In this document: piece after piece, positions 7,872 to 51,947 of the stretch | Numbering within the stretch: position 1 is the first letter of the stretch | Layout of the letters: each line of letters begins with the position of its first letter | Source: a virus | Virus record (IMG/VR): IMGVR_UViG_3300035663_001321 | Span: 1-59,937 of that record | Strand: one strand, 5' to 3' | Length of the DNA stretch: 59,937 nucleotides | Notes under the pieces: model-generated | Databases searched by the model: none | Told to the model about the DNA's origin: nothing | The model's input: the letters and a program-made list of their open reading frames with translations, nothing else | Translations under genes and position numbers: made by a program

Positions 7872-7879
7872 GATAAATA
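7872..7879 (+). promoter_or_regulatory. late promoter GATAAATA, 5 bases from start codon
   Basis: The octamer ends five bases before the ATG at 7885, and no Shine-Dalgarno is present. A T4-type start site would fall at or next to the A of the ATG. Confidence 0.7.
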
Positions 7880-7884
7880 ATATT

Positions 7885-8532
7885 ATGAAAATTCAAGAGA
7901 TTATGTTACTTAATGAGGGTGTTAATGACCCTAACATTTTTAAGGCTGTGTTTATGGCAGGTGGCCCAGGCTCAGGCAAAAGCTTTGTTGCCCGTAAACT
8001 TGGCTTGCAAGCAGCAGGACTACGTACCATTAATAGTGATGATGCTTTTGAATTTCTTCTTAGAAAACATCAACTTGATCCCAAAATGCCACCTGCAGAA
8101 CAAGAAAAGCGTGACATTGTAAGACAACGTGCTAAACAAATGACCAAAGAACGTGAAAAGAACTATTTCCAAGGTCGTTTAGGTGTTATCATTGATGGTA
8201 CTGCTAAGGATGCTGAAAAAACTGCTAAGACAAAAGCAGGTTTAGAAGCACTTGGGTACCAAACCATGATGGTGTTTGTCAATACTAGCTTACCCGTTGC
8301 ATTAGAACGTAATCGCCAACGTGAACGCAGCGTACCTGATGAGGTTGCTAAACAAGCCCATGCTGAAGTACAAGTGGGTAAAGATGCACTACAACAAGTA
8401 TTTGGCTCAAATTTTGTAGTTGTTTTAAATGATATAGAGCCTGATTTCAAACCTGCTTACAAAAAAGTACAAAGCTTTTTAAGGCAACCACTTACTCCAA
8501 CCGCACAACGTTGGATCAACCAAAATAGCTAA
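7885..8532 (+). CDS. P-loop kinase (zeta-toxin/AAA_33-like)
   Basis: 215 aa. The Walker A motif is MAGGPGSGKS (about 25-34), followed by INSDDAFEFLL as expected after the substrate-binding strand, VIIDGTAKD, a lid region with RNRQRER, and a C-terminal helix. The layout fits zeta-toxin or polynucleotide-kinase-like phosphotransferases common in T4-like phages. The phosphorylated substrate is unknown. The N terminus MKIQEIMLLNE resembles the T4 capsid-targeting sequence with an L-x-E protease site, so the kinase may be packaged (inference). It is driven by a near-leaderless late promoter. Confidence 0.7.
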   Translation: MKIQEIMLLNEGVNDPNIFKAVFMAGGPGSGKSFVARKLGLQAAGLRTINSDDAFEFLLRKHQLDPKMPPAEQEKRDIVRQRAKQMTKEREKNYFQGRLGVIIDGTAKDAEKTAKTKAGLEALGYQTMMVFVNTSLPVALERNRQRERSVPDEVAKQAHAEVQVGKDALQQVFGSNFVVVLNDIEPDFKPAYKKVQSFLRQPLTPTAQRWINQNS

Positions 8533-8555
8533 TCTATCCAATTTGTTTGCAAAAT

Positions 8556-8563
8556 TATAAATA
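8556..8563 (+). promoter_or_regulatory. T4-type late promoter TATAAATA for ahpC
   Basis: An exact late octamer lies 61 bases before the chosen ahpC start. The leader contains AAAGGA at a proper distance from the ATG at 8625. Confidence 0.75.
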
Positions 8564-8624
8564 ATGTGTGAATATTATGTCTTGGACATATATTCATTTT
8601 TCACACACAGAAAGGAAAAAACAA

Positions 8625-9164
8625 ATGAAAACAGTAGGTGATAAACTCACACCATTCGCAATTACAGGGGTAAAACCCCACCAACCTGAAGATACATTCT
8701 TCACAATCACAGAAAAAAGTTTTGAAGGTAAATGGAAAATTATCGTTTACTATCCAAAATCATTTACTTTTGTTTGCCCGACAGAAATTGTCGGATATGA
8801 TAAGCTATATCATGATTTCGAAGATCGTGATGCAGTTCTACTTACAGGTTCTATTGATAATGAATTCTGTGCTTTAGCTTGGCAAAATAATCATTTAGAC
8901 CTTAAAAAAATCAAACATATCCAATTTGCTGATACACAAAGAGGTGACTTAAGTTTGGTTGAACAATTAGGAGTATTTTACAATACTGCTGGCGCTCCCT
9001 TAAGAGCAACATTTATTATTGATCCTGATAATGTTATTCAACATGTTACTGTTAATAATTTAAATGTCGGACGTTCACCTGAAGAAACTTTACGAATTTT
9101 AGACGGATGTCAAACTAATGAGCTTTGCGCTTGTAATCGTGCTGTAGGGGGAGAAACTTTATAA
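8625..9164 (+). CDS. ahpC: AhpC-type peroxiredoxin
   Basis: 179 aa from ATG 8625, chosen because AAAGGA precedes it and the family begins here; the frame is open back to 8568. AhpC reduces hydrogen peroxide and organic peroxides. The peroxidatic cysteine is in FTFVCPTEI (about 41-49) with the conserved Pro and Thr, and the catalytic Arg is in GAPLRATFIIDP. The C terminus ELCACNRAVGGETL resembles the actinobacterial-type AhpC (ELCACNW) that is reduced by AhpD. An AhpD homologue lies 1 kb downstream, separated by a homing endonuclease and two tiny genes. The reducing route AhpD to AhpC is inferred from that pairing. Confidence 0.92.
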   Translation: MKTVGDKLTPFAITGVKPHQPEDTFFTITEKSFEGKWKIIVYYPKSFTFVCPTEIVGYDKLYHDFEDRDAVLLTGSIDNEFCALAWQNNHLDLKKIKHIQFADTQRGDLSLVEQLGVFYNTAGAPLRATFIIDPDNVIQHVTVNNLNVGRSPEETLRILDGCQTNELCACNRAVGGETL

Positions 9165-9178
9165 ATCAGTAGGGCAGA

Positions 9179-9186
9179 CATAAATA
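9179..9186 (+). promoter_or_regulatory. late promoter CATAAATA
   Basis: The octamer lies 18 bases upstream of the endonuclease ATG at 9204, with AGAAGGAG between them. Confidence 0.65.
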
Positions 9187-9203
9187 CTCTAGAAGGAGTG
9201 TTT

Positions 9204-9956
9204 ATGTCACATCGTATACCTTACACCTATTATGTATTTCATAGACCAACAGGCTTAAAATATTATGGCTCGAAATATGGAAAAAATGCAAATCCTAACA
9301 CTTTTTGGAAACCTAATGGGTATTTTACATCATCTAAAAAAGTCAAAAAACTTATTATAGAATATGGCATCGATTCATTTGACGCAGAGGTTAGGAAAAT
9401 TTTTGATAGTCCTGATAAAGCTATAAATTATGAATACAAATTTTTAAAGAAAGTGAAAGCTTTATTAAAAGATGATTGGCTAAATGATAATTATGGAGGA
9501 GAAAAATTTAGAAATATTGGTCCTGCTAGTGAAAAAACTTTGCAAGCACAAAGAAATAAAAAACAATCACTTGAAAGTAATATTAAAAGATCTAAAGCTC
9601 TTAAAGGAAAAGAAGTATCAAATGAAACTAGAGAAAAAATGTCAGTGGTGCAAAAAAATCGTTCACCTGAAAAAGAAGAGGAAAGACGAGGTAAAATTAG
9701 AGCAAAAGCAATAGGTCGTGGGCACAGTGACGAGACGAAATCTAAACTATCAAAAATATTTACTGGTACAAAGTGGATCAACAATGGTACTAATCAAAAA
9801 ACAGTTAGGTTCGATGAATTAAACCAATATTTAGATTCAGGTTGGAAATTAGGAAGGATACTTACTATAGTGACATGTCCACATTGTGGAACTAGTGGTG
9901 TAAACTATAATTTAACAAGAAACCACTTTGATAAGTGTAAACAGAAAAAAATTTAA
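9204..9956 (+). CDS. GIY-YIG homing endonuclease, Seg-like
   Basis: 250 aa from ATG 9204 (GGAG five bases upstream; an in-frame GTG at 9198 is less likely). The N terminus YTYYVFHRPTGLKYYGSKYG is a variant GIY-YIG catalytic motif. Two NUMOD3-type DNA-binding repeats follow (GKEVSNETREKMS and GHSDETKSKLS), then a WINNG...SGWKLGR segment typical of T4 Seg-type enzymes, and a C-terminal zinc finger CPHCGTSG...NHFDKC. It sits as a free-standing mobile gene between ahpC and ahpD. It probably spreads by cutting related phages that lack it. Confidence 0.85.
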   Translation: MSHRIPYTYYVFHRPTGLKYYGSKYGKNANPNTFWKPNGYFTSSKKVKKLIIEYGIDSFDAEVRKIFDSPDKAINYEYKFLKKVKALLKDDWLNDNYGGEKFRNIGPASEKTLQAQRNKKQSLESNIKRSKALKGKEVSNETREKMSVVQKNRSPEKEEERRGKIRAKAIGRGHSDETKSKLSKIFTGTKWINNGTNQKTVRFDELNQYLDSGWKLGRILTIVTCPHCGTSGVNYNLTRNHFDKCKQKKI

Positions 9957-9966
9957 GGATTAGAAC

Positions 9967-10098
9967 ATGTTCAATTATGAATCTTTGTGGGATTTATATG
10001 AAATGAAATTTATCATAATTTTTCTATCAATAGTTGTAACCATTGTTCTTGCAACATGGTTATATGATAAGAAAAAGGATAAAGATAATCATGATTGA
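9967..10098 (+). CDS. small single-pass membrane protein
   Basis: 43 aa. One hydrophobic helix (FIIIFLSIVVTIVLATWLY, about 15-33) is followed by a basic tail KKKDKDNHD. It overlaps the next small gene by 8 bases. Function unknown. Confidence 0.5.
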   Translation: MFNYESLWDLYEMKFIIIFLSIVVTIVLATWLYDKKKDKDNHD

Positions 10099-10216
10099 AC
10101 TTATTTGGGCACTTGGTGCAATTATTTTAATTGATGTAGTATTAGGTGGTGAAAATGCGGCTGAACCATTGTTACAAGAATATATAGGAGAATTTAAAAA
10201 TGTCAGCATGGGTTAA
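10091..10216 (+). CDS. small protein resembling the first helix of TerC
   Basis: 41 aa. WALGAIILIDVVLGGENA looks like the first membrane segment and the LGGDNA motif of TerC/YjbE-type membrane proteins, but the rest of that family is absent. It may be a remnant of a captured terC-like gene or a genuine tiny membrane protein. It overlaps the start of ahpD by 17 bases and its AGGAG-like AATATAGGAGAA serves the ahpD start. Confidence 0.4.
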   Translation: MIELIWALGAIILIDVVLGGENAAEPLLQEYIGEFKNVSMG

Positions 10217-10715
10217 TGTATTAAAAGAAGGATTGCCTGATTACGCAAAAGATATACGTCTAAATTTAGATGCAGTAATTTTACGTTCAAGCTTAGATCC
10301 TATCGTAGCTGAAGGATGTGCGCTAGCTGCAGCAGTTGCAACAGGTAATGGTGGTATTGTGGGTAGAATTTATCCTTCAATAACTGATGAAGTAGAACGT
10401 GATGCAGCAATGGCAGCAGCAAGCCTTATGGCACAAAATAATGTATGGTATCCATATGTTGAAATGGCAGAAGATGAAAATTTAAAAGGTTTACCTGCTC
10501 AGTTACGAATGAATGCAATATTATCACACGGTGGTACTACTAAAGTACGATTTGAAGCGTATAGTTTGTGTGCTAGTATTGTTGGCAAGTGTCACTTTTG
10601 TGTAAAAGCACATTATGAAACACTTAAAAAAGAAGGCTACACTGTGGAACAATTACGTGATATTGGACGCATTGCAGCAGTGATTAACGCAGCATGTAAA
10701 ATATTAGTTGGGTAA
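10200..10715 (+). CDS. ahpD: AhpD alkylhydroperoxidase
   Basis: 171 aa, full length for AhpD (about 175). The active site CHFCVKAH (about 136-143) is the CxxCxxxH disulfide centre that passes electrons to AhpC. The N terminus LKEGLPDYAKDIRLNL and the segment MAQNNVWYPYVEM also match AhpD closely. It is preceded by TAGGAG. With the phage AhpC it makes a complete peroxide-reducing pair; the electron donor (lipoyl proteins in mycobacteria) would come from the host. Confidence 0.92.
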   Translation: MSAWVNVLKEGLPDYAKDIRLNLDAVILRSSLDPIVAEGCALAAAVATGNGGIVGRIYPSITDEVERDAAMAAASLMAQNNVWYPYVEMAEDENLKGLPAQLRMNAILSHGGTTKVRFEAYSLCASIVGKCHFCVKAHYETLKKEGYTVEQLRDIGRIAAVINAACKILVG

Positions 10716-10718
10716 TTA

Positions 10719-11897
10719 ATGAGAATAGCAATTATTGGCGCAGGTATTGCAGGAGTAGTACCTGCATATTTTTTGTCCAAAAATGGACACGATGTTACAA
10801 TTTTTGAGCAAGAACGTTACGCAGCAATGCGCACAAGTTATGCTAATGGTGGACAAGTTAGTGTAAGTAATAGCGAAGTATGGACAACATGGGCTAATGT
10901 ATTAAAAGGATTAAAATGGATGCTAAAAAAAGATGCACCATTGCTTATCCATCCATCATTAGATCTTGATAAGATAAAATGGATTACAAAATTCCTAGCT
11001 AATACTGCTAGTCGAGTATATAAACAAAATACTATTGAAACCATTAAGCTTGGTCTAGAAAGTAGATTGTTATATAAACAAATTATAAAAGATGAAAATT
11101 TAGAATTTGATCAAAGCAATTGTGGTATTCTACATATTTACAAAGATGCAAAATACCTAAATGCTGCTTTTGATGCGCAAGATATCTATGAACCACATGG
11201 GTGTGAGTGGAAAATGCTTGTCAACCATGATGATATTCTTGCAATCGAACCTAATCTTAAAGATATGGGTGGTTTAATTGGGGCAGCATGGACTGCTGAC
11301 GATTGGGTAGGAGATATTCATAAATTTTGTAAACATTTATTGGATGTTATACGTTTAAAATATAATGGATGTGTTTCATTCAATCATGGCATTATAGACC
11401 CTAGAGCATTAACAGAGAATTTTGACAAAGTAATAATTGCTGCAGGAGTTGAAAGTGTACAACTTGCAAAAGAATTTGGTGAAAATTTACCAATTTACCC
11501 TGTAAAAGGTTATAGCATTACCATTGATGCAGAAGATGTTAAATCATATAAAGCAATGCCGAAAGTCAGTTTGTTAGATGATCAAGCAAAAATTGTCAGT
11601 GCAACACTAGGTACAAAATTACGTGTGGCAGGTACTGCTGAATTGTGTGGTTATAATCGTGACATTACAAGAAGTAGAATTGAACCATTGTTAAATTGGG
11701 TAAATGAAAACTTCCCTAATGTGGACACAAGCTGTTATAGTAGTTGGGCATGTTTGCGACCAATGACTCCAAATATGATGCCAATCGTGCGTGAAAGTAA
11801 AGTTAAAAATATTTACTATCATACAGGACATGGACATTTAGGTTGGACCATTAGCCCCGCAACAGCATTAAATTTAGTGAAACAACTTGAAAATTGA
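10719..11897 (+). CDS. dadA: D-amino acid dehydrogenase (DadA-like flavoprotein)
   Basis: 392 aa, slightly shorter than bacterial DadA (about 420-430). FAD binding is shown by IAIIGAGIAGVVPAYFLSKN with FEQE at the end of strand two. Family motifs TSYANGGQVSVSNSEVW, KGLKWMLKKDAPLLIHP, IYPVKGYSITI and the C-terminal TGHGHLGWTISPATALNL are all present. DadA oxidises D-alanine and other D-amino acids to 2-oxo acids and ammonia at the inner membrane, passing electrons to the respiratory chain. It starts 3 bases after ahpD, so it is cotranscribed with it. Use of D-alanine released from peptidoglycan is inference. Confidence 0.88.
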   Translation: MRIAIIGAGIAGVVPAYFLSKNGHDVTIFEQERYAAMRTSYANGGQVSVSNSEVWTTWANVLKGLKWMLKKDAPLLIHPSLDLDKIKWITKFLANTASRVYKQNTIETIKLGLESRLLYKQIIKDENLEFDQSNCGILHIYKDAKYLNAAFDAQDIYEPHGCEWKMLVNHDDILAIEPNLKDMGGLIGAAWTADDWVGDIHKFCKHLLDVIRLKYNGCVSFNHGIIDPRALTENFDKVIIAAGVESVQLAKEFGENLPIYPVKGYSITIDAEDVKSYKAMPKVSLLDDQAKIVSATLGTKLRVAGTAELCGYNRDITRSRIEPLLNWVNENFPNVDTSCYSSWACLRPMTPNMMPIVRESKVKNIYYHTGHGHLGWTISPATALNLVKQLEN

Positions 11898-11903
11898 TAA
11901 ATA
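11896..11903 (+). promoter_or_regulatory. late promoter GATAAATA, 5 bases from start codon
   Basis: The octamer overlaps the dadA stop codon and ends five bases before the ATG at 11909. No Shine-Dalgarno is present. Confidence 0.7.
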
Positions 11904-11908: not shown

Positions 11909-12160
11909 ATGAGCGAAGAACACGACAAAATTAAACACAGTCGTCGTAGACTTAAAGACGAAAATGCTGTCAATAAGCAAGTAAGAATCGCTAAAGAACA
12001 TGGTTTTAATGTTGAGGAACCACACAAATTTGCTAAACATCATGCAATGAATTGTGGTAATCCAAAATGTTTGTTATGCGCTAATCCTAGAAAGATTTTT
12101 AATGAAAAAACTATACAGGAACAGCGTCATGAACAGAAAAAACTATGGGAAGATGAGTAG
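11909..12160 (+). CDS. small basic cysteine-containing phage protein
   Basis: 83 aa from ATG 11909. It is highly charged (HSRRRLKDENAVNKQVRIAK) with a central HHAMNCGNPKCLLCANPRK segment that could bind a metal through three cysteines and histidines. Proteins with this CGNPKC..C.NPRK motif are familiar in T4-like cyanophages, function unknown. It probably has a leaderless late mRNA. The opposite-strand frame at 11819-12043 is a shadow. Confidence 0.6.
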   Translation: MSEEHDKIKHSRRRLKDENAVNKQVRIAKEHGFNVEEPHKFAKHHAMNCGNPKCLLCANPRKIFNEKTIQEQRHEQKKLWEDE

Positions 12161-19871: not shown

Positions 19872-21006
19872 TATTCCATTTATTCGTTTAGATCGTCAAT
19901 ACGAGTCTATTAAAGATGAATTGCTCAGTGTTACTGATGAAGTATTAAAAAGTGGTAAATTAGTCAATGGTAAGTACAAGTTTGATTTAGAAGAATATTT
20001 TTGTGAGTATTTACATTATAAACATGCATTTGCAGTGCATAGTGGAACACAAGCTTTAGAAATTATTGCTGAAGCTAATAAATTAGTAACATCATACAGA
20101 AAAAAAGAAAGTCATATCCTTTTACCTGATGTAAGCTATAAAGCTACATTACATGCTTTTATTCGTCATGGTTACAATGTTACCTTAGTTGATGTTGATG
20201 CTTATGGTATGATGAAGTGGGATGAAGTTACAAAAATTGTCGAACAAAATCCTGATATTATTTTTGATATTTGTATTGTAGGGTTATATGGTGCAAAACC
20301 ATATTACAATAATCATAAAGAAAATGATTTACGATTTAAAGCATTGAGCACAATTACTATACGTGGTGGTAAAGTATATGAAGATGGTGCGCAACATTGG
20401 TTAAGTGGTAAAAATGAAATGTCTACTGCTATGGCAATTAGTTTAGATCCTACAAAAAACTTAAATGCTAGTGGTAATGGTGGTGTTATTGTAACTAGTT
20501 ATGCTGATTTAGCAAATCATATTAGAGCAATTTGCAAAAATGGTTCAGAAAACAGTCTATTTTCTACACAAATAGGAACCAATAGTAAGTTAAGTGAAAT
20601 TGATTGTGCACATGTTTTAGTACGTACTAAGCATATTGAAGCATGGCAACAACGCAGAAAAGATATTGCTGCCTATTATATGCGTGAATTCGCTAAACAT
20701 GATATTGAAAACTTATGTGAATCAAAAGAAGAACGTATGTATGCATATCATAGCGTTAACAAGTTTGCGATTAGTGTAGAGAATCGTGATCGTTTGCAAG
20801 AATATCTACAGTTACATGGTATAGAGACTAAAATACATTACAAACAAAATTTATCAAGACATAGATTAGCTAAGAATAACTGTTCCTTTTTAGAGAATTC
20901 TTGGCAATTTTGTGCGCATACATTATCTTTACCAATCTATCCTGAACTAACTGATGGTGAAGTTGAGCGAATAACACAGACAATTATCAAATTCATGCAT
21001 AAATAA
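19789..21006 (+). CDS. DegT/DnrJ/EryC1-type sugar aminotransferase
   Basis: About 405 aa. Homology begins near IPFIRLDRQYESIKDELLSV, roughly 30 codons after ATG 19789; no ATG, GTG or TTG lies between, so the true start is uncertain and the gene overlaps the epimerase by about 80 bases. The PLP-binding Lys is in SLDPTKNLNASGNGGVIV. It moves an amino group to a keto-sugar nucleotide. HSGTQALEIIAEANK is the cofactor phosphate region. It is the natural partner of the upstream epimerase. Confidence 0.85.
   Translation: MLTLKSVWNAITSGSQTAPIGNQKLENSIPFIRLDRQYESIKDELLSVTDEVLKSGKLVNGKYKFDLEEYFCEYLHYKHAFAVHSGTQALEIIAEANKLVTSYRKKESHILLPDVSYKATLHAFIRHGYNVTLVDVDAYGMMKWDEVTKIVEQNPDIIFDICIVGLYGAKPYYNNHKENDLRFKALSTITIRGGKVYEDGAQHWLSGKNEMSTAMAISLDPTKNLNASGNGGVIVTSYADLANHIRAICKNGSENSLFSTQIGTNSKLSEIDCAHVLVRTKHIEAWQQRRKDIAAYYMREFAKHDIENLCESKEERMYAYHSVNKFAISVENRDRLQEYLQLHGIETKIHYKQNLSRHRLAKNNCSFLENSWQFCAHTLSLPIYPELTDGEVERITQTIIKFMHK
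20998..21005 (+). promoter_or_regulatory. late promoter CATAAATA, 5 bases from start codon
   Basis: The octamer overlaps the stop region of the aminotransferase and ends five bases before the ATG at 21011. No Shine-Dalgarno. Confidence 0.7.
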
Positions 21007-21010: not shown

Positions 21011-21517
21011 ATGTGGATATTATCTTTATTACCTGAATGGGCGATTCATGCAATATTTGCAGCAGGTGCAGTTGGAATAATTCTAGGTTTTGTACTAGGA
21101 TTTATCCCATTCATAAACAAATACAAACTTCCTATACAAATTATAAGCATTTTAGTCTTTGCTTTTGGTGTATACCTTGAAGGTGGATATGCTAATGAAA
21201 TGATTTGGCAGATGAAAGTCAAAGAAATGGAAGTAAAGATTAAAGAGGCTGAAGTCAAGGCTGCACAAAAGAATGTAGAAATCCAAGAAAAAGTAGTCAC
21301 TCAAACTCAAATTGTAAAAGAAAAAGGTCAGGATATTATTAAATATGTGGATAGATATAGAGACCGTGAAGTTCTCAAGACAGTAGAAGGACCTGAACGT
21401 GTTAAGATTGAAGAGGTCATTAAGTTTGTAGAAAATTGTCCTATTCCACAAGATATAATTGATGCACATAATTCTGCTGCTAAAATGAACGAAGCAGCAA
21501 AAGGTGATAAAAAATGA
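21011..21517 (+). CDS. membrane/coiled-coil protein, probable inner-membrane spanin
   Basis: 168 aa. Two hydrophobic segments (about 11-32 and 41-57) precede a long charged coiled coil (KVKEMEVKIKEAEVKAAQKN onward) that would reach into the periplasm. It overlaps the next gene, a lipoprotein, by 4 bases. A membrane-anchored coiled coil overlapping an outer-membrane lipoprotein is the usual layout of Rz/Rz1 spanins that disrupt the outer membrane at lysis. The late promoter fits. Two instead of one membrane segment is unusual. Confidence 0.55.
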   Translation: MWILSLLPEWAIHAIFAAGAVGIILGFVLGFIPFINKYKLPIQIISILVFAFGVYLEGGYANEMIWQMKVKEMEVKIKEAEVKAAQKNVEIQEKVVTQTQIVKEKGQDIIKYVDRYRDREVLKTVEGPERVKIEEVIKFVENCPIPQDIIDAHNSAAKMNEAAKGDKK

Positions 21518-23027: not shown

Positions 23028-23244
23028 TTTTAATTTGTTCTCGTTTTGCAATATACTCTTGATATAGTTCTATTTCTTTCATATTGATTAGGTATGACTT
23101 GCCACCTGTCATATGGTTTTTCAACATACCTTCACTTAGCCATTGTAATCTTTGTTTAAATTCTTCCAAATTAGAACATTTCATATATTCATATGAATTC
23201 ATGAGTTCTTTTCTTAGCGCATTTAATTTTTGTTGTTTAGTCAT
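23014..23244 (-). CDS. small helical protein
   Basis: 76 aa, charged and helical (LNALRKELMNSYEYMKCSNL). Its start overlaps the end of the 33-residue peptide gene and its end overlaps the ASCH-like gene, so the three are translationally coupled. Confidence 0.55.
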   Translation of the reverse strand: MTKQQKLNALRKELMNSYEYMKCSNLEEFKQRLQWLSEGMLKNHMTGGKSYLINMKEIELYQEYIAKREQIKNEVS

Positions 23245-23338
23245 GATCTACCGTTATATGTCCATAATTCCATCGACTCAAATTGTAATATTGAGTGGTT
23301 TCTTCTCTTGATTCAGTAATAAATTCAGTAGCTCTCAT
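23237..23338 (-). CDS. 33-residue peptide with capsid-targeting-like N terminus
   Basis: The ATG at 23338 lies exactly five bases after the minus-strand octamer CATAAATA (23344-23351), as for the plus-strand leaderless late genes, with no Shine-Dalgarno. The peptide begins MRATEFITESREE, which matches the T4 capsid-targeting sequence MKTYQEFIAE in style and contains I-T-E, a prohead-protease-type site. Its stop overlaps the next ATG. It may be a packaged peptide or a leader for the operon. Confidence 0.6.
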   Translation of the reverse strand: MRATEFITESREETTQYYNLSRWNYGHITVDHD

Positions 23339-23343: not shown

Positions 23344-23351
23344 TATTTATG
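23344..23351 (-). promoter_or_regulatory. late promoter CATAAATA (minus strand)
   Basis: The octamer on the minus strand lies five bases before the ATG of the 33-residue gene. It is 6 bases away from the plus-strand octamer at 23358-23365, making a divergent late promoter pair. Confidence 0.65.
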
Positions 23352-23357: not shown

Positions 23358-23365
23358 GCTAAATA
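23358..23365 (+). promoter_or_regulatory. late promoter GCTAAATA, 5 bases from start codon
   Basis: The octamer ends five bases before the ATG at 23371. No Shine-Dalgarno is present. Confidence 0.65.
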
Positions 23366-24289: not shown

Positions 24290-24724
24290 GTGAGAATATA
24301 CGAAATATTAAAAGAAGAAACTGAAGATCGCCCACATTTATCTGCGGAACAATTAGCAGCAGTTGAGCGTTTTGCTGATAAGTTATGGGAAAAATTAGGT
24401 ATTGATGTAAAATTTGGTACCCATTTTTTAGAACGATTATATCGTTATGAAAACGATCCACCTATTTCAGGCGCAGAATTAGTTCGTTTATTTAAACAAG
24501 AATATCAAAAATACGGTAAAGAAATTGCTTCGCTACCACCTGAAACTGAAGGTGTGTTTATGGATTTACTCACTAACGTAAACTTACCATTTGTTATTAA
24601 GCAACGTGACGTAGATGAACCTAAGAAAATATTAGGGCAAACCATTATGCGTAAACCTAGTAATACTGCAAAAGGACAATTTGTTCCAAAAGGTCCTGCT
24701 TTTAAAATTGGTAGAACGGATTAA
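24290..24724 (+). CDS. conserved phage protein with capsid-targeting-like N terminus
   Basis: 144 aa from GTG 24290, one base after the previous stop; the upstream in-frame ATG lies inside the previous gene. It starts MRIYEILKEETE, with L-K-E as a possible prohead-protease site. The core GTHFLERLYRYENDPPISGA and ELVRLFKQEYQKYG match a small conserved family of T4-like phages, and TIMRKPSN is also typical. Function unknown. Confidence 0.6.
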   Translation: MRIYEILKEETEDRPHLSAEQLAAVERFADKLWEKLGIDVKFGTHFLERLYRYENDPPISGAELVRLFKQEYQKYGKEIASLPPETEGVFMDLLTNVNLPFVIKQRDVDEPKKILGQTIMRKPSNTAKGQFVPKGPAFKIGRTD

Positions 24725-24727
24725 ATA
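24720..24727 (+). promoter_or_regulatory. late promoter variant ATTAAATA, 4 bases from start codon
   Basis: The octamer spans the stop of the preceding gene and ends four bases before the ATG at 24732. No Shine-Dalgarno. Confidence 0.55.
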
Positions 24728-24731: not shown

Positions 24732-25103
24732 ATGCGAGCTAAAGAATTCATAGCAGAACACAATCCTACAGGTAAACCACATCCTAATGCTAAAGAAGCA
24801 TCAAGAGGTTTACATAAGTTTCGTGATATCAATGCACAAGACCGTATCTATGAATTAAATCGTGTCATGATGGCAGTTGCATGTACTGATGGTAAAGTTC
24901 CTGTTAATTTAGACTCTGAGAGTTATACAGGTCGTAATAATACTGCACATCCTTATACAAAAGAAGAACAAGACATGCTCAAAATTGCATATGCAGCAGT
25001 AGGTTCCGAAGTACATGATTTAAATAATGGTGATATGCGTAGTTTAGAAGTAAAAGATACCAATAAAACAAGCCCAATACAAGCATTTAAAGGCTTCAAA
25101 TAA
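24732..25103 (+). CDS. small protein with capsid-targeting-like N terminus
   Basis: 123 aa from ATG 24732. The start MRAKEFIAEHNPT is very close to the T4 internal-protein signal MKTYQEFIAE, including I-A-E as a cleavage site. The body is alpha/beta (ELNRVMMAVACTDGKVPVNL, KMLKIAYAAVG-like). The C terminus SPIQAFKGFK matches the end of the metallopeptidase-like neighbour. A capsid-packaged protein delivered with the DNA is inferred. Confidence 0.6.
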   Translation: MRAKEFIAEHNPTGKPHPNAKEASRGLHKFRDINAQDRIYELNRVMMAVACTDGKVPVNLDSESYTGRNNTAHPYTKEEQDMLKIAYAAVGSEVHDLNNGDMRSLEVKDTNKTSPIQAFKGFK

Positions 25104-25858: not shown

Positions 25859-25866
25859 CATAAATA
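25859..25866 (+). promoter_or_regulatory. late promoter CATAAATA, 5 bases from start codon
   Basis: The octamer ends five bases before the ATG at 25872. No Shine-Dalgarno. Confidence 0.7.
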
Positions 25867-25871: not shown

Positions 25872-26069
25872 ATGAGTGATGAGTTAAATGATTTAAGAAA
25901 ATTGGCAGGTATCACCCTGCCAAATTCTTCTGATTATGGTGCAGCAATTAGTATGACTGCAACCCAAAAAGCACAAATTATGCGTGAAAAGAATATAAGA
26001 CCTGGGGATCCTGCTTGGTTCAGACTATGGTTTGCCCAAACTCATCTAACAGGTGAAAAACCAATTTAG
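25872..26069 (+). CDS. small conserved phage protein
   Basis: 65 aa. MSDELNDLRKLAGI is a start seen in small T4-like phage proteins; the end RPGDPAWFRLWFAQTHLTGE is also distinctive. It has a leaderless-type late promoter and lies upstream of a structural gene. A minor virion protein is plausible. Confidence 0.55.
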   Translation: MSDELNDLRKLAGITLPNSSDYGAAISMTATQKAQIMREKNIRPGDPAWFRLWFAQTHLTGEKPI

Positions 26070-26076
26070 ATAAATA
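26069..26076 (+). promoter_or_regulatory. late promoter GATAAATA
   Basis: The octamer overlaps the stop of the previous gene and ends 21 bases before the ATG at 26098. The leader has no good Shine-Dalgarno. Confidence 0.65.
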
Positions 26077-26097: not shown

Positions 26098-27597
26098 ATG
26101 GAACCCGATCCTTCAGCAGTAGCTCCTTGGTATTTAAGAAACATTAATCAAGCACTTGCCTTAGATGAAACTACAGGCAATGTATACCTTCGTACTGATG
26201 CACAGATTGGTGATGTTACGATTACGGGTAATGTAAATATACCTGGTAACGTGGCGGCGACACAAAGCGGTAATTGGAATGTAGGGTTATTAGGTAATTT
26301 AGCAGGTATTACAGGTAATGTAACAGTAGTTGATGGTGGTGGTAGTTTAACTATTGATGGTAATGTAGGTATTTCAGGTACAGCAAATGTATCGTTAGGA
26401 TCATCAAGTACGGATGCTTTTGGACGTTTACGAGTTAGTAATCCAACTACACTATTTGATACACAATCTAGATACTATGATCATGAACAATTCGCAAGCA
26501 ATACCGCAGGAAGCGGTAGTGTTCTATATAATGCAAATTCTAGTACGTATGAGTTAAACGTAACTACAGGCGCAACAGATAGCGTAATACAAGAAACCTA
26601 TAAGGTCTTCCCCTATCAACCAGGTAAAAGTCTACTCATTTTCGCTACATTTTGTATGTCCACTGCCAAAGCTAATCTACGTCAACGTGTAGGTTATTTT
26701 AATTCAAATAATGGTATATTTTTTGAACAAAATGGTACAACACTTAATATGGTTATTCGTAGTAGCAGTACGGGAAGTATTGTTGAAGACAGAATACCAC
26801 AGAGTAATTGGAACGGTGACAACTTAAGTGGTACAGGTGGTTCTAGCAACCCAAGCGGTATTGCGTTAAACACTGCAGTAGATCAAATATGGTTTACAGA
26901 TGTTGAATGGTTAGGTGTGGGCAGCGTACGAGTTGGTTTTGTAATAAATGGTGTGTTTTATATTGTTCATACATTTAATCATGCTAACGTTGTAGGTAAT
27001 ACAACTACTTATATGTCTACAGCATGTCTGCCATTGCGTTATGAAATTACGAATACAGGTGTAACGTCAAGTAGTAGTATGTTACGCCAAATTTGTGCAA
27101 GTGTTATATCTGAAGGTGGTTATAGTTTATCAGGAACTCCTGCATCAATAGGGCATAATTTAGGCGCACCTATACGATTACCTAATGATCAATCTTTTTT
27201 ACCGCTACTTTCTATACGATTAAAGAGTACAATGCCTGATGCTATTGTAATACCAAAATATTATACAGTTGCTCCTGTAGGACAAAGTGTTTTTAAGTAT
27301 AGAATTTATAGTAGAGCAGTTACAACAGGTGGAACATTTACTTCAATGGGAGTTAATAGTCCTGTAGAGTATAATTTAGCACCACTTGCAGTAAGTAGTG
27401 GAACCATTGTTGCAGAAGGATATATTGTTTCATCAAACCAAAGTTCAGCAGCACCCATGCAAGTTCCGTTAGGGTTTGAAGTACAGCTACAACGTCAACC
27501 ATTTACAGGTGTAACATACGAATATGTTATAACTGCTGCTACAACAGGCACTAATCAAGACGTATATGCTAGCTTAGAATGGCAAGAAGTTAGTTAA
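26098..27597 (+). CDS. virion structural protein (fibre/adhesin-like)
   Basis: 499 aa. The N-terminal 110 residues are GNV/GNW-type repeats (TGNVNIPGNVAATQSGNWNV) suggestive of a beta-helical shaft. STDAFGRLRVSNPTTLFDTQ (about 103-122) is a motif found in many phage virion proteins. The rest is beta-rich with no cysteine cluster or enzyme motif. It is located immediately before the terminase gene and under a late promoter. It is probably a tail, fibre or neck component. Confidence 0.7.
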   Translation: MEPDPSAVAPWYLRNINQALALDETTGNVYLRTDAQIGDVTITGNVNIPGNVAATQSGNWNVGLLGNLAGITGNVTVVDGGGSLTIDGNVGISGTANVSLGSSSTDAFGRLRVSNPTTLFDTQSRYYDHEQFASNTAGSGSVLYNANSSTYELNVTTGATDSVIQETYKVFPYQPGKSLLIFATFCMSTAKANLRQRVGYFNSNNGIFFEQNGTTLNMVIRSSSTGSIVEDRIPQSNWNGDNLSGTGGSSNPSGIALNTAVDQIWFTDVEWLGVGSVRVGFVINGVFYIVHTFNHANVVGNTTTYMSTACLPLRYEITNTGVTSSSSMLRQICASVISEGGYSLSGTPASIGHNLGAPIRLPNDQSFLPLLSIRLKSTMPDAIVIPKYYTVAPVGQSVFKYRIYSRAVTTGGTFTSMGVNSPVEYNLAPLAVSSGTIVAEGYIVSSNQSSAAPMQVPLGFEVQLQRQPFTGVTYEYVITAATTGTNQDVYASLEWQEVS

Positions 27598-27610: not shown

Positions 27611-27618
27611 CATAAATA
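27611..27618 (+). promoter_or_regulatory. late promoter CATAAATA, 5 bases from start codon
   Basis: The octamer ends five bases before the terminase ATG at 27624. No Shine-Dalgarno. Confidence 0.72.
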
Positions 27619-27623: not shown

Positions 27624-29195
27624 ATGAATATGCAAAATGGTGTGCAACTCATTAAGAATCCTTATGAACTTACATCGTTCAAGGATGATAAACAATTACA
27701 AGACTTTTTAAAATGCTGTAATCCTGATACAGGTTATCTATATTTTATGGATAACTTTTTTATGATACAACACCCTACACAAGGTAGTATGTTATATCAC
27801 CCATGGGCTTATCAAAAACGATTAATAGAAACATACCATAACTATCGTTTTAGTATATCTCTAATGCCACGCCAAAGTGGTAAATCTACAAGTGCAGCAG
27901 GTTATTTGCTATGGTATGCAATGTTTGTACCTGACAGTACGATTCTTATTGCTGCACATAAGTATGCAGGTTCGCAAGAAATAATGCAACGTATACGTTA
28001 TGGTTATGAGAATTGTCCACTACATATTAAAGCAGGTGTTGTAACTTATAACAAAGGATCACTAGACTTTGAAAATGGTAGTAGAATTATTAGTGCTACC
28101 ACTACAGAAAATACAGGTCGTGGTCTTTCTATATCGTTATTATATCTTGATGAGTTTGCATTTGTTCGCCCAGGCATTGCTAAAGAATTTTGGACCTCTA
28201 TCGCCCCTACTCTAGCAACAGGTGGTAAAGCAATTATAACAAGTACCCCAAATAGTGATGAAGATCAGTTTGCTATAATTTGGAAAGGTGCAAATAAAAC
28301 ACAGGATGAATACGGTAATACTACTGAATTAGGTGTTAATGGTTTTAAAGCGTACAAGGCACATTGGAGCGAACAACCAGGTCGTGATGAACAATGGGCT
28401 GAATCTATGAAAGCACAACTTGGTGATGAACGATTCAGGCGTGAAATTGGTTGTGAATTTGTTATCGCTGATGAAACATTGATCAATCCATTAATACTTA
28501 CCACACTAGAGGGTATGGAACCCATTGAGCGTATGGGTCAAGTACGTTGGTTTTCTAAACCACAAAAAGGTAATATCTATTGTGTTGGGCTAGATCCAAG
28601 CTTGGGTACAGGTAGCGATCCTGCTGCTATACAAATATTTGAAGCAAATACTACTAAACAAATTGGTGAATGGAAACATAATAGAACTACCATACCTGAA
28701 CAAATTAAACTATTAGCCAAAATAAATGAATACATTGTTGATATAACCAATGAACCTAATAATTTATATTACAGTTTAGAAAATAATACTATTGGTGAAG
28801 CAGCACTTATATCATTAGCAGAATATGGCGAAGAAAATATTAAAGGCACCATGCTAAGCGAACCTAAACAAGTAGGTGCAACTAGACGTTATAGAAAAGG
28901 GTTTAATACCACTCAAAAAAGTAAGTTAGCAGCATGCAGTAAACTAAAAAACTTGATTGAAAGTGGTAAAATGTCGCTGAGAAGTAATGCACTAATCACA
29001 GAATTAAAGTCATTTGTAGCTGCTGAAGGTAGTTATGCTGCAAAAATAGGTGAAACTGATGACTTAGTAATGGCAACATTATTGGTTATACGTATTTTAC
29101 AACATCTTCAAAACTATCATAGTGACCTAGATACGCACATTAGAGATCACAGCGAATACATTGAACCCATGCCATTTATAATGACATTAAGTTAA
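27624..29195 (+). CDS. terL: large terminase subunit (T4 gp17-like)
   Basis: 523 aa. The ATPase has Walker A-type SLMPRQSGKST (about 85-95) and Walker B LLYLDEFAF (about 172-180); the C-terminal RNaseH-fold nuclease has GLDPSLGTGSD (about 323-333) and a late GETDDLVMA acidic motif. It pumps DNA into the prohead and cuts concatemers by the headful mechanism, as for T4. The small subunit is not in the window. The gene has a leaderless-type late promoter. Confidence 0.95.
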   Translation: MNMQNGVQLIKNPYELTSFKDDKQLQDFLKCCNPDTGYLYFMDNFFMIQHPTQGSMLYHPWAYQKRLIETYHNYRFSISLMPRQSGKSTSAAGYLLWYAMFVPDSTILIAAHKYAGSQEIMQRIRYGYENCPLHIKAGVVTYNKGSLDFENGSRIISATTTENTGRGLSISLLYLDEFAFVRPGIAKEFWTSIAPTLATGGKAIITSTPNSDEDQFAIIWKGANKTQDEYGNTTELGVNGFKAYKAHWSEQPGRDEQWAESMKAQLGDERFRREIGCEFVIADETLINPLILTTLEGMEPIERMGQVRWFSKPQKGNIYCVGLDPSLGTGSDPAAIQIFEANTTKQIGEWKHNRTTIPEQIKLLAKINEYIVDITNEPNNLYYSLENNTIGEAALISLAEYGEENIKGTMLSEPKQVGATRRYRKGFNTTQKSKLAACSKLKNLIESGKMSLRSNALITELKSFVAAEGSYAAKIGETDDLVMATLLVIRILQHLQNYHSDLDTHIRDHSEYIEPMPFIMTLS

Positions 29196-29202: not shown

Positions 29203-29210
29203 GATAAATA
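29203..29210 (+). promoter_or_regulatory. late promoter GATAAATA
   Basis: The octamer ends 21 bases upstream of the ATG at 29232. The leader lacks a strong Shine-Dalgarno (AAAGTGGA). Confidence 0.65.
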
Positions 29211-34996: not shown

Positions 34997-36061
34997 ATGG
35001 GAAAACCCTTTGATATATCAAAATTTAGAAAAGAAGTTACAAAAAGTATAGAAGGTATTAGCGTAGGATTTCATGATCCCACTGATTGGATTTCAACAGG
35101 CAACTATGCATTGAATTATCTTATCAGTGGTGATTTTAATAAAGGTGTACCACTTGGTAAAGTTACTGTATTTGCAGGTGAAAGTGGTAGTGGCAAATCA
35201 TATATTTGCAGTGGAAATATCGTAAAAAATGCACAAGAGCAAGGTATATTTGTTGTACTAATTGATAGCGAAAACGCATTAGATGAAAGTTGGTTGCATG
35301 CGTTAGGTGTTGATACAAGCGATGATAAATTGCTAAAACTAAATATGGCAATGATTGATGATGTTGCAAAAACTATTTCAACATTTATGAAAGATTATAA
35401 AGAAACACCACTTGCAGAGCGACCCAAAGTATTGTTTGTTATAGATAGTTTAGGCATGCTTATGAGTCCAACTGAAGTAAACCAATTTGATAGTGGTGAT
35501 ATGAAAGGTGATATGGGACGTAAAGCTAAAGCACTAAAAGCATTAGTTACAAATTGTGTAAATATGTTTGGTAGTTATAATGTAGGATTAGTTGCCACTA
35601 ACCATACGTATGCTTCGCAGGATCCATACAATCCTGACCCTAACGTAAGTGGTGGACAAGGTTTTGTATTTGCTAGTAGTATTCTAGTAGCAATGAAAAA
35701 ACTAAAGTTGAAGGAAGATGAAGAAGGTAACAAAACATCAGATGTGCTAGGCATACGTGCAGGTTGTAAAGTAATGAAAACACGTTTTGCCAAACCATTT
35801 GAAGATGTTGAAGTACAAATTCCGTATGAAAAAGGCATGAATCCTTACAGTGGTTTTTTTGATTTGATTGAGAAAAAAGGGTTTGTTACTAGAGAAGGTA
35901 ACCGTTATATGTATACTGACTTGCATGGTGAAGTACATCGTTACTTCCGTAAAGAATGGTCAAAAAATGAAAACGGTATTATGGATTTAGTCATGAAAGA
36001 ATTTTCACAACGAGAAAAAATTGTAACTACAGAACTAGCAGAGGAAGAACAAAATGCTTGA
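34997..36061 (+). CDS. uvsX: UvsX/RecA-type recombinase
   Basis: 354 aa. Walker A is VFAGESGSGKSYICSGN (about 56-72), Walker B VLFVIDSLGML (about 142-152), and the DNA-binding loop region is around PTEVNQFDSGDMKGDMGRKA. VATNHTYASQDPYNPD and VSGGQGFVFASSILV are typical of UvsX. It catalyses strand exchange for recombination-dependent replication. It overlaps the next gene by 8 bases. Confidence 0.93.
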   Translation: MGKPFDISKFRKEVTKSIEGISVGFHDPTDWISTGNYALNYLISGDFNKGVPLGKVTVFAGESGSGKSYICSGNIVKNAQEQGIFVVLIDSENALDESWLHALGVDTSDDKLLKLNMAMIDDVAKTISTFMKDYKETPLAERPKVLFVIDSLGMLMSPTEVNQFDSGDMKGDMGRKAKALKALVTNCVNMFGSYNVGLVATNHTYASQDPYNPDPNVSGGQGFVFASSILVAMKKLKLKEDEEGNKTSDVLGIRAGCKVMKTRFAKPFEDVEVQIPYEKGMNPYSGFFDLIEKKGFVTREGNRYMYTDLHGEVHRYFRKEWSKNENGIMDLVMKEFSQREKIVTTELAEEEQNA

Positions 36062-38266: not shown

Positions 38267-38404
38267 ATGTTTAATTTAGTTATTAGCTTGTCATGTTTAT
38301 ACTTCGCCAAAAAAGATTTTGAAGATGGTAATAGCAAACTAGGATGGTTTAGTCTTGTCATATCTGCCTGTAACTTTTCTATTTTTTTAGCAGAATATTT
38401 CTAA
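38267..38404 (+). CDS. small membrane protein
   Basis: 45 aa. Two short hydrophobic segments (FNLVISLSCLYF and FSLVISACNFSIFLAEYF) flank a charged middle. It follows the previous gene by one base. Confidence 0.45.
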   Translation: MFNLVISLSCLYFAKKDFEDGNSKLGWFSLVISACNFSIFLAEYF

Positions 38405-38407
38405 ATA
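38400..38407 (+). promoter_or_regulatory. late promoter variant TCTAAATA, 5 bases from start codon
   Basis: The octamer overlaps the previous stop codon and ends five bases before the ATG at 38413. No Shine-Dalgarno. It is unusual as a late-type element within the early-type gene region. Confidence 0.45.
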
Positions 38408-49187: not shown

Positions 49188-49211
49188 AGTATTATTCTTA
49201 AGGAGAATTTA

Positions 49212-49463
49212 ATGGGATCATTCAATCGTAAGATAGTTGAATCACTTGATGTTTTGAATAAATTATTGGCACTTATATTTGTTGTTATGGCAGGTATAAC
49301 ATTTTTCGGTGAAATGTTTGATAACTTTTTACCTGCAGTTATGTCTGCACTAGGTATTCTTATTGTTGGTATTGTCACATGTGGCTATACTGCAATTCTT
49401 ATCAATGTTAATCAAAACATTGAAGCTATGCGTGATAAAATCAACCCCGCACCAAAGGAATAA
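49212..49463 (+). CDS. small two-helix membrane protein
   Basis: 83 aa. Hydrophobic stretches at about 18-34 and 40-63 with a short acidic turn between. The ends are charged. Function unknown; could be an inner-membrane holin-like or exclusion protein, without proof. Confidence 0.55.
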   Translation: MGSFNRKIVESLDVLNKLLALIFVVMAGITFFGEMFDNFLPAVMSALGILIVGIVTCGYTAILINVNQNIEAMRDKINPAPKE

Positions 49464-49465
49464 AA

Positions 49466-49708
49466 ATGCGTAATATATTAGGTTATATCGTATGGTCAGC
49501 TAGTCAATGGGAAAAAGAAACTTGGTTGGTTATTTTTTGTTTTGTAGTAGGTGTTTCTAGTTTAATTGTTCAGCAACCATTAATATTTTTTGCATGTATG
49601 GCTTTAGTTCCAATAATTGGTTTAGGTTATATGATTAAAGAAAAAGTAACCAAGAGTTATATCAAATACAAACGTATTAAAGAAGCTAGTGAAGATTGTC
49701 CGTTATGA
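49466..49708 (+). CDS. small two-helix membrane protein
   Basis: 80 aa. Hydrophobic stretches at about 20-36 and 39-57, then a basic helix (KEKVTKSYIKYKRIKEA). It begins 2 bases after the preceding membrane protein. Confidence 0.55.
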   Translation: MRNILGYIVWSASQWEKETWLVIFCFVVGVSSLIVQQPLIFFACMALVPIIGLGYMIKEKVTKSYIKYKRIKEASEDCPL

Positions 49709-50151
49709 GCGAAACTTATTATAAAAAAGTTGGGAGTAAGTATATACCTATTTCTGAACATGATCCTAGTTTAGATCATGCCTTTAGTGAAGGATGCCAT
49801 TTGGTCATCAGTCGCCCAGGCCACCATATCCGAAAGTACAACATAGACCCTGAATTTGCTCCATTAATTGCAGCAGCAACATTTGCACGTGAGGAGATTA
49901 GTAAATCATTGCGTAAAAGTTTGGAAATGCGTCCTAGTAAAGTTCCAATTACTGAAGAACAAAATATTGCTTGGATAAGATTGTCTGAAGCTTTTGGAGA
50001 AGAATGTCATCCACTTCAATATCCTAGTATATACGAAGCAGTCGAGAGTGGATTAGCTGCACTTGTGTATGAAGCTGCACAAAAATTACAAAACCCCGCA
50101 GTAAAAGCAGCATACGATAATTTTATGATGGTTTATCAACTCACTAAATGA
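49705..50151 (+). CDS. hypothetical soluble protein
   Basis: 148 aa from ATG 49705, overlapping the previous gene by 4 bases. SEGCHLVISRPGHHIRKYNI and EECHPLQYPSIYEAVESGLA are distinctive but not assigned to a family. Confidence 0.6.
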   Translation: MSETYYKKVGSKYIPISEHDPSLDHAFSEGCHLVISRPGHHIRKYNIDPEFAPLIAAATFAREEISKSLRKSLEMRPSKVPITEEQNIAWIRLSEAFGEECHPLQYPSIYEAVESGLAALVYEAAQKLQNPAVKAAYDNFMMVYQLTK

Positions 50152-50351
50152 TGTCATTTTTATATAGAACTATAACTGTATGTGCGGTTGTTTTGTTTGC
50201 ACGTAATGTTATATTGTTTTTAGATAAAACTTATGCGGATAAAGACATACTTCCACCGCATGATTTGCGATATTATCATACGGATCACTCGGCACTTTGC
50301 GCCGATGGTATAAGAAAGTATGGTTATTGCAGTCAAAAAATCGATAAATAA
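50148..50351 (+). CDS. small membrane-anchored protein
   Basis: 67 aa. One N-terminal hydrophobic helix (TITVCAVVLFARNVILFL) and a short periplasmic-type tail with two cysteines. It overlaps the previous gene. Confidence 0.5.
   Translation: MMSFLYRTITVCAVVLFARNVILFLDKTYADKDILPPHDLRYYHTDHSALCADGIRKYGYCSQKIDK
50343..50350 (+). promoter_or_regulatory. late promoter GATAAATA, 7 bases from start codon
   Basis: The octamer overlaps the previous stop and ends seven bases before the ATG at 50358. No Shine-Dalgarno. Confidence 0.65.
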
Positions 50352-50357
50352 TATTCT

Positions 50358-51947
50358 ATGCTCAAAGATTTTTTTACTTATAGTAGGTTTACGCTATTTG
50401 TTGCATTAGCCATTAGTGTTATTGCAGCGTATTATAGTATTATTGGATTGACTGCAATTTTTGCGGGTGCGTTTGTATCTATTGTTATTATGGGTACTGT
50501 GCTTGAAGTTGCCAAAGTAACTACTACAGTGTGGTTACATATGTATTGGAAGCGTTCAGGATGGGTCATTAAAACGTACCTTACTACCGCAGTCATAGCA
50601 TTAGCGTTTCTTACAAGTATGGGTATCTTTGGGTATTTATCTAAAGCACATATTGACCAAGGCATACCAACAGGTGATGTTGCAGCACAGGTTGCGTTAC
50701 TTGATGAAAAAATTAAAACAGAGCGTGATAATATTGAAACTGCAAGAAAAGCCTTGCAACAAATGGATAGTCAGGTTGATCAATTATTATCACGTGGTAC
50801 TACTGAACAAAATGCTGAGCGAGCAGTAGCTATACGTAGACAACAAGCTAAAGAACGTACCTCATTACAAAATGAAATTGCAAAATCACAGAATGTTATA
50901 AAAGACTTAAATGAACAACGTGCGCCAATTGCTAGTCAGTTACGCCAAGTTGAAGCTGAAGTTGGACCTATTAAATATATTGCTGCATTAATATATGGAG
51001 ATAATCCTGATGCAAACTTACTTGAACGTGCAGTACGTTGGGTAACTATATTAATTGTAGCGGTTTTTGACCCACTTGCTATTATATTAATTCTTGCTGC
51101 TAATAATTCATTAAAATGGGAACGTGAAGATCGTATCAAAAAACGTAAGGAAGATGAACTACAATATGAAGCAGATGATGGCGCATTAACCCAAGACCAA
51201 ATTGATCAAGTTAAAGATTCATTAAAACAAAATGAATCAACTACTGATGAAATTGTAGAAGAAATTAAAGAAGAAGCTGTTGAAGAAAAACGTGCTGAAC
51301 AGGTTTATTTAACAAAGCCATGGGTCGATAAGGTCCCAGGCATACGTTTTCCTCACCAAGTTTATCAACCCCCACAATTTCCAATACCAACCAAAGATGA
51401 AGAATTTGTTGAGCCTATCAATACTACGGATGAAATAGTAGAACCTACGATTGATAGCGAAGAATTAACTGCTGATTCAGATGATTTTAAATTTAAACCT
51501 GTGCCTTTAACAGTAACACAAGCAGAGGAAGTTATTACAGATAATGTAACTAAACTTAAACCATTATTTAAATCAACCGATGAGTATGTTAATTATGATG
51601 GTAAAAGTATGAGTATGAATGCTTTAAAGGGTATACGCCCTGATTTGATACATCCTGCTAATAAGCCATGGCCCAACCAAATTAATTTTGGTGGTAAGTT
51701 TCCTGATGAAGCATTAAGTGGTGATACCTTTATTCGTATTGACCGTGTACCACATATTGTTTACAAATTTAATGGTACTAAGTGGATTGTTGTAGATAAG
51801 CAACAAAACAGTACGTATTTGACTAACATCAATTACATTGATTATTTGATTGAATGTCTAAAAAATGGTAGTATTGACATAGAAATACTAACCGAAGTTG
51901 AGCGTGAAGAAATAGAAACACGTTTAGCAGTTGACAAGAAATCCTAA
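50358..51947 (+). CDS. large membrane and coiled-coil protein of T4-like phages
   Basis: 529 aa. Hydrophobic helices lie at about 12-29, 31-52 and 72-94, followed by a coiled coil (about 110-205) and a further helix (about 231-250). EVAKVTTTVWLHMYWKRSGW and LTSMGIFGYLSKAHIDQG are signatures of a conserved membrane protein of marine T4-like phages. The C-terminal half is acidic and proline-rich, then a small folded end. The role is unknown; late expression suggests a virion or envelope function. The next promoter's -35 lies inside its 3' end. Confidence 0.65.
   Translation: MLKDFFTYSRFTLFVALAISVIAAYYSIIGLTAIFAGAFVSIVIMGTVLEVAKVTTTVWLHMYWKRSGWVIKTYLTTAVIALAFLTSMGIFGYLSKAHIDQGIPTGDVAAQVALLDEKIKTERDNIETARKALQQMDSQVDQLLSRGTTEQNAERAVAIRRQQAKERTSLQNEIAKSQNVIKDLNEQRAPIASQLRQVEAEVGPIKYIAALIYGDNPDANLLERAVRWVTILIVAVFDPLAIILILAANNSLKWEREDRIKKRKEDELQYEADDGALTQDQIDQVKDSLKQNESTTDEIVEEIKEEAVEEKRAEQVYLTKPWVDKVPGIRFPHQVYQPPQFPIPTKDEEFVEPINTTDEIVEPTIDSEELTADSDDFKFKPVPLTVTQAEEVITDNVTKLKPLFKSTDEYVNYDGKSMSMNALKGIRPDLIHPANKPWPNQINFGGKFPDEALSGDTFIRIDRVPHIVYKFNGTKWIVVDKQQNSTYLTNINYIDYLIECLKNGSIDIEILTEVEREEIETRLAVDKKS

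Follow-up and report, generated by a model that had tools for sequence, protein, structure and literature searches.

Late genes of the virus record IMGVR_UViG_3300035663_001321 from IMG/VR, which we analyzed over its entire length of 59,937 bases (the window), and of its relatives fall into two classes that differ in the distance d, the number of bases separating the end of a T4-type late promoter octamer from the ATG. In the close class d is 4-8, in the leadered class it is 16-32. This two-class spacing is conserved in relatives of the window and absent in T4, syn9, and CBB. The close arrangement is lineage-wide and thereby wider than first claimed in an earlier inspection of the window's letters (the sequence-only reading). 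The best explanation, and in our judgment a highly probable one, is that close octamers give rise to leaderless late mRNAs. Unless another pattern is named, the octamer was scored as N[A/C]TAAATA.

The sequence-only reading had listed eleven close octamers in the window, and all eleven distances were confirmed, with d = 5 at eight sites, d = 4 before 24732, and d = 7 before 1660 and 50358. On the plus strand, octamers at d = 5 precede the ATG at 7885 (GATAAATA, 7872..7879), which opens an open reading frame (ORF) of 215 amino acids (aa; 7885-8532) for an AAA_33/Zeta_toxin-fold kinase-like ATPase, those at 21011 (CATAAATA, 20998..21005; 168 aa) and 23371 (GCTAAATA, 23358..23365; 305 aa), and that of the terminase large subunit at 27624 (CATAAATA, 27611..27618), a 523-aa protein with Terminase_6N/6C matches (27624..29195, plus strand) whose mRNA is predicted to be leaderless. 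Four further sites at d = 5 stand before short ORFs, at 11909 (GATAAATA, 11896..11903; 83 aa), 25872 (CATAAATA, 25859..25866; 65 aa), 38413 (TCTAAATA, 38400..38407; 44 aa), all on the plus strand, and on the minus strand at 23338 (CATAAATA, 23344..23351; 33 aa, MRATEFITES...). The two sites at d = 7, both on the plus strand, belong to ORF 1660-2979 (GCTAAATA, 1645..1652; 439 aa), for whose product no Pfam or PHROG match was found, and to the 529-aa ORF at 50358 (GATAAATA, 50343..50350). At 24732 (plus strand, 24720..24727; 123 aa, MRAKEFIAEH...) the spacing agrees, but the octamer-like sequence ATTAAATA is a poorer match, and proteins of the related genomes G001-G003 with similar N-termini have no octamer at the corresponding place. 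Leadered contrasts on the plus strand are GATAAATA at d = 21 before two genes for virion structural proteins, 26098 (26069..26076) and 29232 (29203..29210), both without a Shine-Dalgarno (SD) core, and, with an SD, TATAAATA at d = 20 before 1224 (1196..1203) and CATAAATA at d = 17 before 9204 (9179..9186).

A spacing of five bases exceeds chance over the full window when motifs are counted: ATAAATA-N5-ATG occurs six times compared to 0.92 expected, and MTAAATA-N5-ATG (A or C first) nine times compared to 1.35, numbers that none of 100 shuffles reached in either case. A stricter control was weak, as ATAAATA stands at d = 4-6 before three ORFs of at least 100 aa and its overlapping permutation TAAATAA likewise before three. 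Because the window alone is small, the case rests on its relatives. One further match on the plus strand, absent from the list of the sequence-only reading, is ACTAAATA-N5-ATG at 35338-35351, in frame within ORF 34997-36061. It is a possible internal start or a coding coincidence; one relative has a site of this type in the same family, likewise at d = 5, and the match may be due to chance.

We compared two panels of loci. Panel 1, the window clade, comprises 80 loci from a terminase search (73-92% identity), and panel 2 the 80 loci nearest to PA5oct; sampled every 100 bases, the panels have no exact 100-mer in common. Since loci inside a panel are kin (58 of the 80 panel 1 loci have a 100-mer in common with another), we quote distinct sites, counted before an ATG opening at least 70 aa. 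At d = 0-3, 4-8, 9-15, and 16-32, panel 1 has 3, 149, 2, and 85 such sites, of which 0, 8, 0, and 44 carry an SD core, and panel 2 has 5, 109, 5, and 94, with an SD core at 0, 1, 1, and 57. When the sites were collapsed into 43 protein families, d = 5 was found in 13 families and d = 9-11 in none.

The same picture emerged from single genomes, in which octamers were counted before ORFs of at least 100 aa; as genomes were scanned in tiles of up to 20 kb, sites spanning tile edges were missed. For d = 4-8, 9-15, and 16-32, with SD cores in brackets, the counts are 7 (1), 1 (0), and 6 (4) in the window, 54 (2), 10 (4), and 64 (42) in G001 (524 kb; one further site at d = 0-3), 17 (0), 5 (2), and 27 (13) in G002 (260 of 264 kb scanned), 14 (0), 1 (0), and 20 (6) in G003 (191 kb), and 23 (0), 0, and 40 (27) in G011 (354 kb; two further sites at d = 0-3). 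G001, G002, G003, and G011 hold the loci L021, L051, L070, and L388, respectively, so panels and single genomes are not independent. The corresponding counts are 1 (0), 4 (3), and 20 (17) in T4, 1 (0), 1 (0), and 32 (18) in PA5oct, 0, 2 (0), and 20 (15) in CBB, and 0, 2 (0), and 19 (7) in syn9, whose transcription starts Doron et al. have reportedly described. Among 80 syn9-like loci, a single close site was found among 189 sites at d = 0-32, and 15 CBB-like loci had none. In PA5oct, lowering the ORF threshold to at least 50 aa gave four close sites, all at d = 5.

Controls for letter order and composition set the close sites apart. At d = 4-6 before ORFs of at least 100 aa, ATAAATA was counted 41 times in G001, where 20 other orders of its letters averaged 3.55 and reached 12 at most. 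In HTVC008M it was counted 8 times compared to 3, and in T4 and syn9 the count was 0. Scrambled motifs showed no peak at d = 4-6 in panel 1. These controls are not perfectly flat, with AATATA peaking in panel 1 at d = 17 (16 distinct sites) and at d = 3 (12), and in panel 2 at d = 5 (14). Reversed ATAAATA, a word identical backwards, was dropped as a control in favour of scrambled words and the full set of letter orders.

The close site of the terminase gene is conserved. An octamer stands at d = 4-8 in 68 of the 80 panel 1 relatives, and TAA[AG]TA at d = 3-8 in 74 of 80 loci in panel 1 and 60 of 80 in panel 2, compared to 1 and 0 for the control TAA[CT]TA. The sequence-only reading had proposed a designed leaderless class that includes the terminase; the distinct close class, far above chance in the relatives, and the place of the terminase in it stood, while design is an interpretation put upon them. 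Among genes related to 21011, 39 of 40 sites lie at d = 5-8, clustered at both 5 and 8. Another family is leadered, with 47 of 48 sites at d = 16-32 and an SD in 41, and the 26098 family has 11 of 13 sites at d = 16-32, none close, and an SD core in none of the 11. In the 29232 family, the gene after the terminase, 70 of 76 sites are close, and the member in the window is leadered, its octamer standing at d = 21 and no SD core being present. The class thus tends to be gene-specific, yet can switch, since 29232 is leadered in the window while most of its family is close.

The close class is not mainly made up of virion genes, although the terminase and some head proteins belong to it. Median protein length in the window and G001-G003 is 215 aa for close-class and 271.5 aa for leadered genes. 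Of 20 close-class G001 proteins scanned (from 44 listed with at least 150 aa), two match virion families, and the others are accessory or unmatched. The 20 leadered G001 proteins scanned (from 53) include a tail tube protein, two weak tail-fibre matches, a head-tail adaptor, and a virion protein, as well as a protease, an exonuclease, and a ribonucleotide reductase.

A second, distant lineage shows the same spacing. HTVC008M (147 kb), a cultivated phage of the ocean bacterium Pelagibacter, has 12 close sites, 11 at exactly d = 5 and one at d = 8 (two with an SD core), none at d = 9-15, and six leadered sites, all with an SD core. Its 80 terminase relatives have 7, 34, 4, and 63 distinct sites at d = 0-3, 4-8, 9-15, and 16-32, with an SD core at 2, 1, 2, and 58. 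A terminase tree of 15 rows places HTVC008M with syn9, S-SRM01, L464, L252, and T4 (100/100), the last a long branch of which the tree tool warns, and the window with PA5oct, CBB, and relatives (100/100). Because HTVC008M and the window, with 33.6% terminase identity, stand on separate branches, the close class is present in two lineages far apart from each other. Relatives of both lineages lack it entirely or almost so (T4 one site, syn9 and CBB none), and it may have arisen twice or may have been lost often.

The two classes differ in their translation signals as a tendency. In the window and G001-G003, an SD core was found at 2 of 80 close sites (d = 4-6) and at 65 of 117 leadered sites. 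The sequence-only reading had stated that close sites lack an SD and that genes with longer gaps have one. The first part mostly applies; an exception is 1660, where a purine-rich SD core stands on the upstream side of the octamer, at the far edge. The second applies to 1224, 8625, 9204, and 16867, and also to 234, 37200, and 59059, but fails at 26098 and 29232. As a strict rule the correlation breaks down, given the 26098-like leadered genes without an SD core (0 of 11) and the 21011-like close sites with one (11 of 39). Start codons at d = 4-6 before ORFs of at least 100 aa in the same four sequences are ATG in 82 cases and GTG in one, with no TTG or CTG. Mis-called starts were considered and rejected, as only 5 of 82 close and 7 of 118 leadered genes have another in-frame ATG with an SD core in the 30 codons downstream. 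The +4 base was likewise rejected as a mark of leaderless genes, as it is mostly the leadered class that departs from background. A third rejected candidate was a phage IF3 carried by leadered and missing from leaderless lineages. An IF3-like gene was found in 121Q, CBB, Phosso, RaK2, and Atu_ph07; none was found in G000-G006, T4, PA5oct, MIJ3, SCTP-2, or eight further records including HTVC008M, syn9, KVP40, and Aeh1. Since it was not found in T4, PA5oct, MIJ3, SCTP-2, or the eight further records either, IF3 does not discriminate between the two kinds of lineage.

These data suggest the following mechanism. In a lineage of large T4-like phages, late genes of both spacing classes would be transcribed from a T4-type octamer read by a gp55-like late sigma factor. 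A gp55-like match was found in 8 of 11 records, including G001-G004, G006, PA5oct, and T4, and none in G005 or G007; apart from the octamer, no column is conserved in the 22 bases upstream of close sites. The T4 late octamer is described as spanning -13 to -6 relative to the transcription start (PMC1524935) and as lying one helical turn upstream of it (PMC2988020), and because of this position close-class transcripts are predicted to begin at or near the AUG. Provided that the polymerase initiates roughly six bases beyond the octamer, as it does in T4, a close-class mRNA would either have the A of the AUG as its first base or a leader no longer than about three bases; at d = 5, the most frequent distance, this A would be +1. 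Such mRNAs would be translated as leaderless mRNAs. An octamer 16-32 bases before the AUG would leave room for a leader, often with an SD, and the nearly empty zone at d = 9-15 would correspond to leaders of 4-10 bases, neither leaderless nor able to hold an SD.

Several points weigh against leaderless late mRNAs. We infer both the start position and leaderless translation from promoter spacing and the T4 rule. No octamer stands before the terminase of L078 (9980-10002), the nearest relative of the window by terminase (92%), which appears from its sequence to have lost or to lack it. Loci of one panel are kin to each other, G001 has 10 sites at d = 9-15, and the raw pattern count in G002, 31, is barely higher than the control at 27. 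Close-class genes are in part bound to lack an SD, whose place is taken by the octamer, and 11 of 39 21011-like close sites do have an SD core. Leadered genes often go without one (26098-like 0 of 11, 29232-like 0 of 6), and only 13 of 27 leadered sites in G002 and 6 of 20 in G003 have it. At +4, A is found in 47 of 80 close-class genes, near the G001 background of 0.51, and the leadered class has G in 50 of 117. No gp55 match was found in the window, which is a fragment.

It is possible, though clearly less probable, that the transcripts carry short leaders, with starts scattered or 1-5 bases before the AUG and 70S ribosomes binding near the 5' end, a situation functionally close to leaderless translation. 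This would fit a close class that covers d = 4-8 rather than 5 alone and the clustering of 21011-like genes at both 5 and 8. It fits less well with the mode at d = 5 in all four panels or genomes that have the close class and with HTVC008M, where 11 of 12 close sites lie at exactly 5.

Much less likely is that the close octamers are promoters serving genes downstream, and that translation proceeds mainly from read-through mRNAs, coupled to the upstream gene. A same-strand ORF ends between -60 and +25 of the ATG for 29 of 82 close-class genes, compared to 65 of 118 leadered genes, and in the window 1660, 11909, 21011, and 24732 closely follow a same-strand gene. With only 29 such cases, coupling is not general: 53 of the 82 genes have no such ORF, among the window genes 7885 follows an ORF on the opposite strand (6983-7696), and neither member of the divergent pair 23371 (plus) and 23338 (minus) has a same-strand gene close upstream. 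Coupling also leaves the fixed spacing unexplained. That the octamers are no promoters at all, reflecting chance in A+T-rich start regions (GC content of the genomes 0.33-0.39) or another cause such as low structure around the AUG, draws on the equal count of TAAATAA in the small window-only test and is extremely improbable in view of the composition controls in G001 and HTVC008M, the scrambled motifs without a peak at d = 4-6 in panel 1, the terminase control, and the lack of a close peak in T4, syn9, and CBB.

Leaderless late genes of this kind would be a variant of two known themes, T4-type late promoters (the gp55/gp33/gp45 system) and leaderless mRNAs. As described for T4 in PMC2988020 and PMC1524935, the promoters share the consensus octamer and have no -35 element, and a gp55-like gene is found in relatives of the window; the CTAAATA variant is reported for Aeh1 (PMC1524935). 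In T4, most octamers stand 17-32 bases upstream of the ATG, an SD accompanies 17 of 20, and a single close site was found, whereas about half of the sites here are 4-8 bases from the ATG. Bacterial leaderless mRNAs (PMC9031893) similarly have an AUG at or near the 5' end, which is predicted here, no SD, and an almost exclusive use of AUG. If the close class is leaderless, its translation would be expected to use 70S ribosomes and to depend less on IF3. In contrast to these, the close class is tied to a phage-specific late promoter, and other late genes keep their leaders. PA5oct, a Pseudomonas phage (Wroclawvirus), has the nearest named terminase (51% aa identity), a ribosomal protein bS21, and a gp55-like match like the window's lineage, but one close compared to 32 leadered sites. 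HTVC008M resembles the window lineage in its d = 5 sites and its bS21 gene; it differs in having a genome of 147 kb and a terminase that falls on the T4/cyanophage side of the tree. In the literature open to search, which covers certain licences only, we found no report of leaderless T4-type late mRNAs, which is not proof of their absence.

If the leaderless explanation is correct, a whole late-gene class including the DNA-packaging motor would be translated without an SD in abundant aquatic phages, promoter spacing alone would set the mode of translation, and gene-finding programs that require an SD may overlook close-class starts or put them in the wrong place. The close spacing is seen in two distant T4-like lineages, and HTVC008M, whose host is in culture, offers a system in which the question can be tested. 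Phage bS21 would gain a concrete candidate substrate.

The window encodes such a bS21 (PF01165, 69 aa; 55048..55257, plus strand), a proposed partner of leaderless translation, next to and downstream of a ClpX-like gene (53795-55051), the stop codon of which overlaps the bS21 ATG. bS21 was also found in G001 (twice), G002, G005, G011, PA5oct, HTVC008M, MIJ3, Ettore, SCTP-2, Atu_ph07, and Phosso; of the 33 records searched, the remaining 20 gave no match above the cut-off. All three bS21 genes of G001 and G002 (L093, L147, L163) have an octamer 37 bases before an ATG. According to PMC9723584, bS21 of lake phages, which are predicted to infect Bacteroidetes, is proposed to be expressed late and to steer ribosomes to late phage mRNA; no mention of leaderless mRNA was found in the passages covered. 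HTVC008M bS21 is described as entering E. coli ribosomes and leaving about 5% of normal GFP output in a purified system (PMC6375957), and no trial of a leaderless template was found in the passages covered. A hypothesis, which we regard as rather unlikely, is that phage bS21 refits host ribosomes late in infection to favour leaderless phage mRNAs; hypothetically, a leaderless template would then be the missing substrate behind the low GFP output. In favour of such a link, both close-class lineages carry bS21 (the window, G001 twice, G002, G005, and G011; HTVC008M). Against it, PA5oct, MIJ3, Ettore, SCTP-2, Atu_ph07, and Phosso have bS21 and no excess of close sites in raw counts, searches of G003 and G004, both contigs with the close class, gave no bS21, and E. 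coli particles enriched for leaderless translation are described as lacking bS21 (PMC12186496).

Two products of close sites, 24732-25103 (plus strand, MRAKEFIAE) and 23237-23338 (minus strand, MRATEFITE), have N-termini similar to the one that targets internal head proteins of T4 to the capsid. In T4, the capsid-targeting N-termini of head proteins are cleaved by gp21. The N-terminal pattern is matched by MKTYQEFIAE proteins of T4 and by six proteins in G001, five in G002, and two in G003. Capsid-targeting proteins were rejected as the identity of the close class, as MRAxEF[IV]xE proteins in G001-G003 mostly lack a close octamer.

The window has a GC content of 0.35, and no tRNA genes were found over its 59,937 bases. 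Downstream of bS21, on the plus strand, it encodes a NifU_N/IscU-like iron-sulphur scaffold protein (55419-55802, E = 2e-53), here in a phage, an IMP dehydrogenase/GMP reductase-like enzyme (56010-57029), and an Hsp20 chaperone (57131-57580). A radical SAM protein with a weak SPASM match is encoded at 2961-3986 on the same strand.

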